Of a stretch of 64,000 bases of DNA, positions 44,431 to 51,720 are shown piece by piece. This DNA is from Planktomarina sp. (GTDB taxonomy: Bacteria; Pseudomonadota; Alphaproteobacteria; Rhodobacterales; Rhodobacteraceae): NCBI GenBank assembly GCA_020630015.1, contig JAHDCF010000005.1, positions 1-64,000 on the forward strand, given 5' to 3'. Under the pieces are notes generated by a model. It had not been told where the DNA came from and made no database searches. It saw only the letters and a program-made list of their open reading frames with translations. Within the stretch, counting starts at the first letter, position 1; each line of letters begins with the position of its first letter. The position numbers and the translations under genes were made by a program.

Positions 44431-45456
44431 ATGGCAAAGAACATCGCAATCTTGGGGGCAAGTGGATACACCGGGGCGGAACTTATCCGTTTGGTCAGTT
44501 TTCACCCTGAGATGTCGATCGCCGCATTGGCGGCGGATCGCAAGGCGGGGCAGGCAATCGGGGATGTTTTTCCACACCTGCGCCATTTGGGTTTGCCCGA
44601 CCTTGTCAAAATCGAAGATATTGATTTCACGGATATTGATCTTGTCTTTTGCGCTTTGCCCCATGGGGTTGGCCATAAACTGGTGCGCGATCTGCCTGAG
44701 AAAACCAAAGTGGTGGATTTATCCGCTGACTTTCGTTTGACAGAGGCCGAAACTTACAAAAAATGGTATGGGTTGGATCACACCGCAATGGATATCCAGC
44801 CTGACGTGGCCTTTGGTTTGCCCGAATTTTATCGTGCCGATATCGCCAAGGCGCGGATTACCGCGAATACAGGCTGTTACGTTGCCACATCATTGTTGCC
44901 GTTAATCCCGTTGCTGCGTGAAAAGGTGATTGCCCCCGATCCCATCGTGATTGATGCAAAATCCGGTGTGTCTGGGGCCGGGCGCGGATTGAACGAACCG
45001 ATGCTGTTTTCCGAAGCAAACGAAGGTTTCAAGGCCTATGGCGTTGGGCATCACCGCCACATGGGCGAGTTGGATCAGGAGCTGTCCAAAGCGGCGGGCG
45101 TTGATGTGATCGCAAGCTTCACGCCACATTTGGTGCCAATGATCCGGGGTATGCAGGCCACAATCTATGCCCGTGGGGACGCCGAGACAGCGCAACAGGT
45201 GCTTGAGGCAACCTTCGCAGATGAAGCCTGCGTTGATGTGTTGCCCCTTGGGGGTATTCCGCAGACCCAACATGTGAAGGGATCAAATATTTGCCGCATT
45301 GGTCTTGTGCCTGACCGTATCGAAGGGCGTTTCATCATTCTGTCTGTGTTGGACAACCTGATGAAAGGTGCGTCTGGGCAGGCCATGCAATGCGCAAACA
45401 TCACCTTGGGGCTGCCTGAAACCATGGGCTTGCCGCAGGTTCCGGTGTTTCCCTAA
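44431..45456 (+). CDS. argC: N-acetyl-gamma-glutamyl-phosphate reductase
   Basis: AILGASGYTGAELIRL, ANTGCYVATSLLPL, SGVSGAGRGLNE. Confidence 0.96.
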   Translation: MAKNIAILGASGYTGAELIRLVSFHPEMSIAALAADRKAGQAIGDVFPHLRHLGLPDLVKIEDIDFTDIDLVFCALPHGVGHKLVRDLPEKTKVVDLSADFRLTEAETYKKWYGLDHTAMDIQPDVAFGLPEFYRADIAKARITANTGCYVATSLLPLIPLLREKVIAPDPIVIDAKSGVSGAGRGLNEPMLFSEANEGFKAYGVGHHRHMGELDQELSKAAGVDVIASFTPHLVPMIRGMQATIYARGDAETAQQVLEATFADEACVDVLPLGGIPQTQHVKGSNICRIGLVPDRIEGRFIILSVLDNLMKGASGQAMQCANITLGLPETMGLPQVPVFP

Positions 45457-45908
45457 TGCGGTCGCTTCAGAAACGACGCCGAATTCAGGTGATTGTTCTG
45501 GCCTTGGTTTGTCTGGTCGGGGCAACGGCCCTGATCGGGTATTCATTGCGAAACGGGATCAACCTTTTTCGTTCGCCGACACAAGTTGTCGAAACACCCC
45601 CCGCCGCAAGTGAGGTGTTTCGGTTGGGTGGTTTGGTGGTGGATGACAGCATCAAAAAAGATGCAGGCGTAAAGTTTTTCTTTGCGGTCACCGATGGGGC
45701 CAATGTGATTAATGTGCATTATGTCGGCGACAATCTGCCCCCTGATTTGTTCGAAGAGGGCCAAGGCACCGTGGCCACCGGACGATATGTGGATGGTGTG
45801 TTCCTCGCGACCGAGATTTTGGCCAAACACGATGAAACCTATATGCCGGCTGAGGTGATCGACGCTTTAAAAGAACAGGGCGTCTACCAAGCACCGGACG
45901 CTGGCTAA
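45456..45908 (+). CDS. ccmE: Cytochrome c maturation protein CcmE
   Basis: FRLGGLVV, VNVHYVGDNLPPDLFEEGQGTVATG, LAKHDETYMP heme-binding His motif. Confidence 0.94.
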   Translation: MRSLQKRRRIQVIVLALVCLVGATALIGYSLRNGINLFRSPTQVVETPPAASEVFRLGGLVVDDSIKKDAGVKFFFAVTDGANVINVHYVGDNLPPDLFEEGQGTVATGRYVDGVFLATEILAKHDETYMPAEVIDALKEQGVYQAPDAG

Positions 45909-45965
45909 AACAGCTGTTAATCTTTTCACGTTCAGGTTTGTGCCATTCATGCAAATGGGGGCACC

Positions 45966-46577
45966 ATGAAATCCGTACATTCCATTGCCGAAGAAATCGT
46001 CGCCCGCGAAGGCGGCTATGTGAATGATCCCGACGATCCCGGTGGGGCAACCAATTTCGGTGTCACGATTGGCACGTTAAAGCGGCTTGGCCTTGATATC
46101 GACCAAGACGGTGATGTGGATCGACGGGATGTTCAAAACCTGACCCAAAGACACGCGGTCGAGATTTTTAAAGATCACTATTTCCAAAAACCAGGCATCG
46201 CCCAATTGCCAGATGTTTTGCGCCCATCGGTGTTTGATATGTATGTGAATGCCGGATCAAATGCGGTGCGCATTTTACAGCGGCTTTTAAACAAAATGGG
46301 TTTTGATTTGGCCGTGGATGGCGCCATTGGGCCCGCAACACGGGATGCGGCCCACAAGGCCTTTGATATGGCGCCGCATCACTTGTCAGATGCCTATGCC
46401 ATCGCCCGGCGAAATTACTATTACAAATTGGCGGACGCACGACCCAAAAGCCGCAAATATGCCCGCCGCAGAAATGGGGGAAAGGGCGGATGGATTGTGA
46501 GGGCGGAGGAGTTTCTGGACGCCAAATACCATCTGTCCGCAAAAGATCATCAGAAAAGGACTGCGAAATGGGTTTGA
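45966..46577 (+). CDS. GH108-type N-acetylmuramidase / endolysin (GTA- or phage-type)
   Basis: EEIVAREGGYVNDPDDPGGATNFGVTIGTL (GH108 catalytic signature) plus putative peptidoglycan-binding C-terminus. Confidence 0.9.
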   Translation: MKSVHSIAEEIVAREGGYVNDPDDPGGATNFGVTIGTLKRLGLDIDQDGDVDRRDVQNLTQRHAVEIFKDHYFQKPGIAQLPDVLRPSVFDMYVNAGSNAVRILQRLLNKMGFDLAVDGAIGPATRDAAHKAFDMAPHHLSDAYAIARRNYYYKLADARPKSRKYARRRNGGKGGWIVRAEEFLDAKYHLSAKDHQKRTAKWV

Positions 46578-47113
46578 TGGTGCGCTTCTTTGATTTGATT
46601 TTTGGCAACGGGCGATCCGATTTGACGGATCTGGCAGAAGTTTTCCGTGAAAACGCAGAAGGGGCCGCCGTGCGCGCGGCGGATGCGCACACAGCCGCCT
46701 TGGATCAATTTGCAGCTGAATTTCAGCACGAGCGGAAAGGCCTTTTTGATCGGTTCATTGATGGATTGAACCGTTTGCCACGACCGGCCATGGCTTTGGG
46801 CACGTTGGCCTTGTTTGCATCGGCGATGTTTAATCCTGAATGGTTCATCACCCGAATGGATGGCCTTCAACAGGTGCCCGAACCCTTGTGGTGGTTGTTG
46901 GGCGCTGTTGTCAGCTTTTATTTTGGGGCGCGTCATCAATGGAAGGCACAAGAATTTCAAAAATCCATGGCACAGCGGAAATCCACGTCGGGGCAACAGC
47001 CGCCAGCAATTTCCCCGCAAGACACGGTGCAAGCCCCTTCCAGATTCGACGACAATGCAGCCTTGCAAGATTGGGTCAGATGGCGGCGCAACCGCACCGA
47101 ACCGCAAACATAG
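46568..47113 (+). CDS. GTA-type 3-TM holin family protein
   Basis: LPRPAMALGTLALFASAMFNPEWFITRMDGLQQVPEPLWWLLGAVVSFYFGARHQWK; start overlaps endolysin stop. Confidence 0.8.
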   Translation: MGLMVRFFDLIFGNGRSDLTDLAEVFRENAEGAAVRAADAHTAALDQFAAEFQHERKGLFDRFIDGLNRLPRPAMALGTLALFASAMFNPEWFITRMDGLQQVPEPLWWLLGAVVSFYFGARHQWKAQEFQKSMAQRKSTSGQQPPAISPQDTVQAPSRFDDNAALQDWVRWRRNRTEPQT

Positions 47114-47181: not shown

Positions 47182-49125
47182 ATGTTCAATGAAACCGCGC
47201 ATTTTGCCCTGATCCTTGCCTTTTTTATGTCGATGGCCGGGGCCGTTCTGCCAATGATGGGGGCGGTGACACGCAATGCGGCGATGATGGATTTTGCGCG
47301 CGTCTCAGCCTATGTTCAGCTGATTTTGGTTGGCTTGGCTTTTGCTGTGCTGACCTTGGCATTTGTCACCTCTGACTTTTCTTTGCGCATTGTGCTGTTG
47401 AATTCCCACACCCTTAAACCCATGCTTTACAAAGTGGCCGGCGTTTGGGGGAACCACGAAGGATCCCTTTTGTTATGGGTGCTGATCCTAACTGGATTTG
47501 CCAGCGCCGTTGCGTTTTTTGGGCGTGGTTTGCCCAGCACCTTAAAGGCCCGTGTCTTGGGCGTTCAAAGCAGTGTAACGGCGGCCTTTTTGGCCTTTAT
47601 CCTGTGGACATCAAACCCCTTTGAACGGGTGCCAAATCCGCCCTTTAACGGGCAGGGGCTTAATCCTTTGTTACAGGATCCGGGTTTGGCGTTTCACCCT
47701 CCCTTTTTGTATTTGGGATATGTCGGATTATCGGTGACATTTTCATTTGCGGTGGCCGCCCTTTTGGAAGGGCGTGTTGATGCCGCTTGGGCGCGATGGG
47801 TGCGCCCTTGGACCCTTGCCGCGTGGCTGTTTTTAACCATCGGCATCGCCTTGGGCAGTTGGTGGGCCTATTATGAATTGGGGTGGGGCGGATTTTGGTT
47901 TTGGGATCCAGTTGAAAATGCCAGCTTCATGCCTTGGCTTATTGCGGCCGCCTTATTGCATTCCGCCATCGTGGTGGAAAAGCGAGAGGTGTTAAAGGCG
48001 TGGACCATCCTTTTGGCCATTTTGGCCTTTGGATTTTCATTGGTCGGCACATTTATTGTGCGGTCAGGGGTTTTGACATCGGTTCATGCCTTCGCCAATG
48101 ATCCGGATCGGGGCGTCCTGATTTTGGGCATAATGGCGTTTTTTGTCGGCGGTGCTTTGACGTTGTTTGCATGGCGCGCCAGCGCGCTAGAAAGCAGAAG
48201 TGTTTTTTCCCTCATCAGCCGTGAAAGCGCATTGGTGGCCAATAACATATTACTGGTCATATCCTGTTTTGTGGTTTTTGTTGGCACGTTCTGGCCCTTG
48301 GTGGCGGAGATGTTCTTTGATCGGCGCTTATCCGTGGGGCCACCCTTTTTTAATGCCGCCTTCACCCCGTTTATGGTGGCTTTGGCGACGATCCTGCCGG
48401 TTGGATCCACCCTTGCGTGGAAACGCGGAAACATCGGCCGGGTGTTCAAATCCCTGTTGCCAACGATGATATTTGCTTTGGCTGTGTTGGGTTTGGTCTG
48501 GGCCATGCAAACGGGACGCAGCCTGATTGGCCCAATTGGCGCGGCCCTTGGGGTGTGGTTGGTGATGGGGGCAGCGTCAGAGGTTTGGTTGCGTGCAAAC
48601 AAACAAGTGGGCCGGATAAAACGTTTACCCGCCTCAGATTGGGGCAAGGCCTTGGCCCACGCTGGGCTTGGCATCACAATATTTGGCATTGCAGCCCTGA
48701 CCGCATGGGAGGTCGAAGATATCCGTGTTTTGGATATTGGCCAAAGCTTTGAAATCGCCGGAAAAGAAATCACATTACGCGGCGTCGAAGATGTGATTGG
48801 GCCGAACTTCACATCCGTTGCCGCAACGTTTGACATCACCACCCCCAGCGGGGCCAGAGATCAAATCGTTGCAGAACGCCGTTTTTACCCGGTGGCACAG
48901 ATGCCAACCACAGAGGCGGCGATTCTGAACGGTGTTTTGAACGATATATATGTGGTGCTTGGCGATGCCCAAGATGCTGGGGGATGGGCTGTGCGCAGCT
49001 TTGTGAAGCCCTTTGCGAATTGGATTTGGGCCGGGGCCATCATCATGGCCATTGGCGGATTGATCAGCCTGACCGACCGCCGTTATCGTGTCGCCGCAGG
49101 TCAACGTTCAGGGGCGGGGCTTTGA
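47182..49125 (+). CDS. ccmF: Heme lyase CcmF/NrfE family subunit
   Basis: GVWGNHEGSLLLWVLIL, GSWWAYYELGWGGFWFWDPVENASFMPWL (WWD domain). Confidence 0.96.
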   Translation: MFNETAHFALILAFFMSMAGAVLPMMGAVTRNAAMMDFARVSAYVQLILVGLAFAVLTLAFVTSDFSLRIVLLNSHTLKPMLYKVAGVWGNHEGSLLLWVLILTGFASAVAFFGRGLPSTLKARVLGVQSSVTAAFLAFILWTSNPFERVPNPPFNGQGLNPLLQDPGLAFHPPFLYLGYVGLSVTFSFAVAALLEGRVDAAWARWVRPWTLAAWLFLTIGIALGSWWAYYELGWGGFWFWDPVENASFMPWLIAAALLHSAIVVEKREVLKAWTILLAILAFGFSLVGTFIVRSGVLTSVHAFANDPDRGVLILGIMAFFVGGALTLFAWRASALESRSVFSLISRESALVANNILLVISCFVVFVGTFWPLVAEMFFDRRLSVGPPFFNAAFTPFMVALATILPVGSTLAWKRGNIGRVFKSLLPTMIFALAVLGLVWAMQTGRSLIGPIGAALGVWLVMGAASEVWLRANKQVGRIKRLPASDWGKALAHAGLGITIFGIAALTAWEVEDIRVLDIGQSFEIAGKEITLRGVEDVIGPNFTSVAATFDITTPSGARDQIVAERRFYPVAQMPTTEAAILNGVLNDIYVVLGDAQDAGGWAVRSFVKPFANWIWAGAIIMAIGGLISLTDRRYRVAAGQRSGAGL

Positions 49126-49586
49126 TGCGGCGTTTGATATTGATATTGGCTTTGATGCTTGTGCCCGTTGTGGCCATGCCTGTGGAACCACAAGAGGTGT
49201 TGCAAGATCCTGTTTTGGAAAAGCGGGCCAGATCGATTTCAAAGGGATTGCGTTGCTTGCAATGCCGCAATGAATCCATTGATCAATCCAACGCTGAAAT
49301 TGCCCGTGATTTGCGCCTTTTGGTTCGCGAGCGCCTGTTGGCGGGGGATACGGATACCGAAGTGGTGGATTACATCGTGGCGCGCTATGGCGAATATGTG
49401 TTGCTTCAACCCAACGGACGTGGTGCCAATCTGGTGTTATGGTTGGCGGGACCGACGTTGTTGTTGATCACCCTTGCCGGTCTTTTCTTGGTGCGGGTGC
49501 GATCCTCTGGCGCGGAGGGGGATCAGGTGACCCCTTTGAATGAAGAAGAAGAAGCTGCCCTAAGGGAATTGCTGGACGATCGCTGA
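49125..49586 (+). CDS. ccmH: Cytochrome c-type biogenesis protein CcmH
   Basis: LRCLQCRNESIDQSNAEIARDLRLLVRE; 1-nt stop/start overlap with ccmF (TGATG). Confidence 0.95.
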   Translation: MRRLILILALMLVPVVAMPVEPQEVLQDPVLEKRARSISKGLRCLQCRNESIDQSNAEIARDLRLLVRERLLAGDTDTEVVDYIVARYGEYVLLQPNGRGANLVLWLAGPTLLLITLAGLFLVRVRSSGAEGDQVTPLNEEEEAALRELLDDR

Positions 49587-50437: not shown

Positions 50438-51481
50438 TTAGGCGTTTTGTTCCGGATCCTGCTTTAGCAGCTGGATGTCGTTGGGTGTGATGGTGGCCGC
50501 CGCAGCAGCAACAATCGCAACATGGCGGCCATCAATGATGATGCGCGCATTGCCTTCGCCATCGTCTTCGACCTCAATCGCCGCGTTAGAAGACCCAGCG
50601 TATTCGATCAAGAGGGTGTCTTCACCGGCAACGAAATCGCGAATAATCTCTATGGTTTGAGCGTCAGCAGATGCAAGATCAGCCTCACCGGAAACCAATG
50701 CATCGATTTCAGACTGCATTGCAGCGTTCGTTACGATTTCTGATGCCAATTCAGAGGATGATTTAACATCTGCTTCGTCTGCCGTGTCAAAAATCGTCAG
50801 ATCAGCAGATTCAGTTGTGTAGAGAGGCGCAACATCTTGGCCTTCAGAAACCTCAACCGAAGCGGTTTCAACGTCTTCTTCAACGGCTGCTTCAACATCT
50901 TCAACGACAACTTCGATTTCAACCGCTTCTTCGTCGTCTTCTTCCGCGACGGCGCTGTCGACAGACGCGCTTTCGAATGCTTTCGTTTCCGTCAGCGGTG
51001 TAATTATGTGGGCCACAGATGTTTCAGCGGCAGCCGCAACGACGAAATCGTCAAAAATATCACTTTCCGAGATATGAGAGACTGCAACAACTTCTTCTTC
51101 TTCAATTTCTGGGAACAAGAAATCGATTTCATCAGACGCCGTGCTGGATGTTGTTTCACCCGTCATAACAGCGTCGATGTGGCCCCAAATATCATTTGAA
51201 ACGTCGTTTGAGGTAATACCACCAGCCAGTTCTTCGTCACTGGCAAAGCTTACGACGACATCTTCCCAAACTGTGGTTGTTTGATCGCCACTGGCGGCGT
51301 CCGCAACAACGGTTTCAGAAGATACATATTCTTGAATCAGGTCGGTTTGGGTTGAAAGTTCGCTATCAAGCTCTGCAAGCAATTCTTGGTTAGACACGTC
51401 TTCAGAAACATCGGCTTCATCTTCACCGATGGCTGCCGTTGTGACGCCGGTCCCTAGTAGCCAGGGAAGGATAAGCATCAT
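50438..51481 (-). CDS. Highly acidic low-complexity protein, unknown function, RTX-like C-terminal signature
   Basis: Very E/D/A/V/S-rich, few K/R; N-terminal hydrophobic MMLILPWLLGTGVTTAAIG; C-terminal IRDFVAGEDTLLIEY...ARIIIDGRHVAIV. Confidence 0.7.
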   Translation of the reverse strand: MMLILPWLLGTGVTTAAIGEDEADVSEDVSNQELLAELDSELSTQTDLIQEYVSSETVVADAASGDQTTTVWEDVVVSFASDEELAGGITSNDVSNDIWGHIDAVMTGETTSSTASDEIDFLFPEIEEEEVVAVSHISESDIFDDFVVAAAAETSVAHIITPLTETKAFESASVDSAVAEEDDEEAVEIEVVVEDVEAAVEEDVETASVEVSEGQDVAPLYTTESADLTIFDTADEADVKSSSELASEIVTNAAMQSEIDALVSGEADLASADAQTIEIIRDFVAGEDTLLIEYAGSSNAAIEVEDDGEGNARIIIDGRHVAIVAAAAATITPNDIQLLKQDPEQNA

Positions 51482-51720
51482 TTCCAAAGAACTGTCCCCA
51501 ATTGGTTAACAAACTAAACACTGAGCAGAAACTACCCTTGAGTTTGCCGTGATTTCAACACTTCTATGCCAGATTTCGAAGAATGAGCGGATTCTTGCAC
51601 ATAAATTCAACCATTGGTGTAGTTTCACATCGCCTTTACAGCGCAAATCCGGCAAAAATCATTGGAAAACAAGCATTTTTGCCGAATTTGTCGAATCGAC
51701 GCTATGATACGATTTTTGCC

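Follow-up and report, generated by a model that had tools for sequence, protein, structure and literature searches.

The window, a 64,000-nucleotide stretch of a Planktomarina genome, carries an endolysin-holin gene pair between the cytochrome c maturation genes ccmE and ccmF. Judged by their sequences, the two genes are homologues of rcc00555 and rcc00556, the lysis genes of the gene transfer agent (GTA) of Rhodobacter capsulatus. The pair is thus an already known kind of gene pair, and it stands at the usual locus of the family. We consider it most probably an ordinary GTA lysis pair, inherited vertically at the common family locus argC-ccmE-endolysin-holin-ccmF, recently orphaned by the loss of the particle genes and on its way to being lost itself. 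The features of the region are as follows.

45456–45908, plus strand: ccmE (PF03100), the upstream neighbour in the conserved synteny.
45917–45922, plus strand: TTAATC, 49 bp before the endolysin ATG at the position of the TTAACC of relatives; only the TTAA core is kept.
45966–46577, plus strand: endolysin, a GH108 N-acetylmuramidase with a PG_binding_3 domain, 203 aa, homologue of rcc00555; an intact open reading frame with the EGGYVNDPDDPGG motif, assigned by Pfam, PHROG and NCBIfam.
46568–47113, plus strand: holin (GTA_holin_3TM, PF11351), 181 aa, homologue of rcc00556.
47182–49125, plus strand: ccmF (PF16327/PF01578), the downstream neighbour in the conserved synteny.
49116–49586: CcmH, from the Pfam-level annotation of the flank.

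The endolysin matches the Pfam domains Glyco_hydro_108 (E = 3e-27) and PG_binding_3 (E = 3e-20). It scores 348.2 bits against NF040573 (holin_dep_muram; cut-off 240), the NCBIfam equivalog ‘holin-associated N-acetylmuramidase’. The holin matches PF11351 with 93.9 bits (E = 1.4e-26), above the curated cut-off of 24.8. The original prediction, made from the letters of the window, had placed an overlapping gene pair between ccmE and ccmF, encoding a GH108 muramidase and a protein laid out like the GTA 3-TM holin family. Both assignments hold, and the endolysin stop and the holin start share 10 bp. The ATG at 46568 is the likely holin start, in preference to the longer open reading frame beginning at 46490, and gives the 181-residue protein. 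By Kyte-Doolittle hydropathy, two segments of the holin are clearly hydrophobic, at about residues 70–94 and 102–121, with no obvious third, and the amino terminus of the endolysin has no obvious strong hydrophobic segment. The holin of the window is the sole GTA_holin_3TM copy in the genome. Further downstream (50438–51487, minus strand) lies a gene for a 349-residue acidic low-complexity protein, rich in Glu, Val and Ala and without a Pfam match.

The gene order argC-ccmE-endolysin-holin-ccmF recurs in most of the family neighbourhoods that we read. This comparison concerns family homologues. In 80 named loci, mostly titled with Rhodobacteraceae genera and some only as ‘Alphaproteobacteria bacterium’, the holin always follows the endolysin (80/80). 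The ccmE gene is at most 300 bp upstream in 64 of the 80 loci and ccmF within 2.5 kb in 53, with several contigs ending too early for a decision. Because the same order recurs so widely, the position among the ccm genes is not special, and the earlier description of the pair as ‘inserted’ in this cluster is not supported. The same synteny contradicts the idea that an unrelated prophage recently inserted its lysis module here. Phages often encode GH108 endolysins. A tblastn search of 50,697 phage records retrieved distant endolysins only, at most about 36% identical among the matches listed, and no match for the holin. With neighbours that are argC and ccm genes, and a position conserved across the family, we regard the prophage explanation as extremely improbable.

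The hexanucleotide TTAACC was found within 70 bp before the endolysin gene in 68 of 120 distinct loci (mean 1.4 and maximum 7 in shuffled sequences), although these 120 loci are related sequences and the counts overstate their independence. In the same locus set it did not occur upstream of the genes for CcmF, CcmE, ArgC, the holin or CcmH (0 cases). The enriched copies lie about 45–60 bp before the endolysin start, for example in L010, L016 and L082. The element of the window, TTAATC, is weaker than the TTAACC of its relatives. TTAAC is a CtrA half-site pattern, and CtrA may bind at this element. CtrA half-sites are reported at the rcc00555/rcc00556 promoter, which is controlled by GafA together with phosphorylated CtrA (PMC9638019). 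The R. capsulatus pair, like that of the window, has a TTAA-type element upstream. The published promoter primer for rcc00555 of R. capsulatus had no match in 397 family genomes. Taken together, the position between ccmE and ccmF and the upstream TTAACC provide a simple marker for finding such lysis genes.

In R. capsulatus, rcc00555 and rcc00556 are co-expressed with the GTA structural cluster, and when rcc00555 is disrupted, gene transfer falls and the particles stay trapped inside the cells (PMC3423380, PMC4158056, PMC6209664). There too, the genes encode an endolysin and a GTA holin and are unlinked to the structural cluster. Their role in release was shown with mutants. In relatives that produce GTAs, late activation of the lysis pair would come from GafA and phosphorylated CtrA. 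The holin would then make the inner membrane permeable, the endolysin would gain access to the peptidoglycan and cut it, and the bursting cell would set the particles free.

A link between this kind of endolysin and GTAs is apparent across the family. An NF040573 match was found in 263 of 298 family genomes, exceeding the cut-off in 252. We compared its distribution with that of GTA_TIM, a domain of the structural protein g15. Both are present in 244 genomes, the endolysin only in 19, GTA_TIM only in 17 and neither in 18 (Fisher p = 8e-10; hand count from listings). Of the 17 genomes that have GTA_TIM and lack an NF040573 match (for example G102 and G105), 12 were tested for GafA and 11 have it; these genomes may use another lysis route.

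The genome of the window, in contrast to that of R. capsulatus with its intact structural cluster, appears to have lost these genes by deletion. No GTA_TIM gene was found in it. When seven structural proteins of a relative were compared with the genome, only a g2 fragment was found (C5:49–279). Contig C5 carries, on its minus strand, fabF, mltG, a g1-like open reading frame and g2 up to GGRGAGKT, so that the Walker A motif, near residue 87, is where the g2 remnant stops. Contig C5 opens with the same 55 bases with which contig C44 closes. Beyond this overlap, C44 encodes the last ~135 residues of g15, followed by cysE and pyruvate dehydrogenase genes, which are the normal downstream flank of the GTA cluster. 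At this overlap g2 breaks off, at about residue 87, and the 3′ end of g15 takes over. Three genus members carry all seven proteins, and in them the positions corresponding to these two ends are 13.0–13.2 kb apart. As the C5/C44 overlap joins g2 to the 3′ end of g15, it implies a deletion of about 13 kb, and an internal deletion of g2–g15 is the simplest reading of these contigs. An intact head-tail cluster g1–g15 was not found in this genome, which holds only the g1-like frame, the g2 fragment and the g15 remnant.

These results divide the proposed connection to GTA release. Both NF040573 and PF11351 place the pair among GTA lysis genes, and across the family this kind of endolysin co-occurs with GTA_TIM. 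The pair also lies apart from the structural genes, as had been proposed, the remnant being elsewhere in the genome on contigs C5 and C44. An active role in GTA release is not supported for this genome, because g2–g15 appear deleted. An RcGTA-like cluster elsewhere in the genome is therefore represented by its remnant and not by an intact copy. The absence of an intact cluster was not accompanied by best hits to an unrelated prophage.

The g2/g15 junction falls on a contig boundary, which leaves room for a chimeric join or a mixture of strains. Assemblers leave overlaps such as these 55 bases at branching points, and here the branch is on the g15 side. An intact allele may thus also have been sampled, or the join may be an error. 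The structural cluster could then be present but absent from the assembly, and the pair could still serve GTA release. If an intact g15 allele had also been sampled, the contigs would be expected to break at a 55-mer that falls entirely within g15. Three genus members carry full clusters together with the same lysis pair. However, no other structural gene or GTA_TIM was found in an assembly of 70 contigs that is 96.6% complete, the g2/g15 join itself is internal to contig C5, and comparable deletions lie inside contigs of other genomes, including the single-contig genomes G124 and G045. We therefore regard a cluster missing from the assembly as improbable. An exact search of viral contigs for a junction 40-mer gave no match.

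Deletions of similar extent recur in six other genomes (loci L199, L200, L201, L202, L070 and L162). Numbered on the G281 reference proteins, g2 1–417 is joined to g15 1184–1344, followed by cysE, in G124, which is a single contig. The corresponding joins are g2 1–328 to g15 1257–1342 in G241 and g2 4–290 to g15 1116–1328 in G077. In G250 a complete g2 is followed by cysE, and in G211 g3 1–238 is joined to g15 from residue 1030. The genus-mate G045, also a single contig, joins g3 1–89 to g15 960–1336. Because the end points differ, these look like separate events. The lysis pair is kept, with full-length endolysin frames, in G124, G241, G077, G250 and G211, and lost in G045. Two further genomes, G204 and the single-contig G142, lack all seven structural proteins, yet retain the pair and GafA. 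In the GTA_TIM-less genomes that we read, endolysin frames are intact except for one that a contig end truncates, holin frames not truncated in this way are intact as well, and most genomes keep TTAAC upstream.

The genome of the window also retains the activator. It encodes a GafA-type DUF6456 protein (PF20057, E = 1e-44) in an open frame of 372 codons without stops. We tested 28 GTA_TIM-less genomes for GafA, choosing them for the states of their lysis pair. GafA was present in 12 of 13 genomes with the pair and in none of 15 without it (Fisher p = 4e-7), a count over genomes that are not phylogenetically independent and in part fragmented. This contrast is a lead and not proof of selection, since the genomes were chosen by state, are related and are partly fragmented. 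In addition, G071 and G036, which are among the 13, keep several structural genes.

The same contrast is what would be expected if GafA and the pair were kept by selection for programmed lysis without particles, in which some cells lyse and release DNA, nutrients or other contents. The intact endolysin and holin frames, mostly with TTAAC upstream, and the retention of pair and activator in G142 and G204 are in line with this. However, recent or ordered loss accounts for the same pattern, and a costly lysis pair should be lost, as it mostly has been in this genus. The relatedness and fragmentation of the genomes and the structural genes of G071 and G036 weaken the case further. We hold particle-free lysis to be unlikely for the window. 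Equally doubtful is the more general form of this idea, that the cluster was repeatedly and independently deleted and that selection in several lineages maintains GafA and the pair for regulated self-lysis without particles.

The preferred reading, a recently orphaned pair, requires only the deletion. A single internal loss of about 13 kb, from about residue 87 of g2 to the last ~135 residues of g15, would have left the lysis pair and GafA intact. What is left of g2 and g15 still forms open frames, and the lysis genes and remnants of this genome (G000) are only slightly more diverged from the outgroup G281 than those of G304 and G305. Both observations fit a recent deletion, so that selection on the lysis pair need not be invoked. 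Relaxed constraint might show as faster evolution of the lysis genes, but identities gave no clear difference. Protein identities near 70% suggest that synonymous sites are saturated.

Within the genus, the pair is present at the ccm locus in 4 of 20 genomes (G000, which is that of the window, G304, G305 and G306), and the last three have all seven structural proteins. In 13 genomes ccmF follows ccmE with nothing like the lysis pair between them, and the ccm locus was not found in the remaining three. The orphaned pair would thus be heading for the loss that has already happened in most genus members. Genomes of the RCA cluster (Planktomarina) have been described as lacking complete GTAs (PMC10675870). 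Our results agree in that the complete structural cluster appears to be lost from the genome of the window, and the genus-mate G045 shows a g2-g3/g15 remnant. They differ in that the lysis pair and GafA are retained here, and in that three members of the same genus have all seven structural proteins tested. A GafA-type activator (GafYZ) likewise occurs with the GTA of Caulobacter crescentus, in which no holin-endolysin homologues were found and lysis proceeds via LypABC, an immune-type system (PMC13236601).

The maintenance of GTAs is puzzling, since the producer cells die. Genomes with activator and lysis genes but without particle genes raise the questions of the order in which GTA parts are lost and of whether lysis has any value without gene transfer.

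Two further genomes of the genus show departures at or away from this locus. In G313 (L183), the ccmE-ccmF gap is ~550 bp compared with ~100 bp, and this is possibly a decayed lysis pair. In G315, a search for the seven GTA structural proteins found none, but a second endolysin-holin pair (L163:2705–3852), divergent from that of the window at 51% and 34% identity, is located between an ion-channel-like gene and rluD-rpoH.
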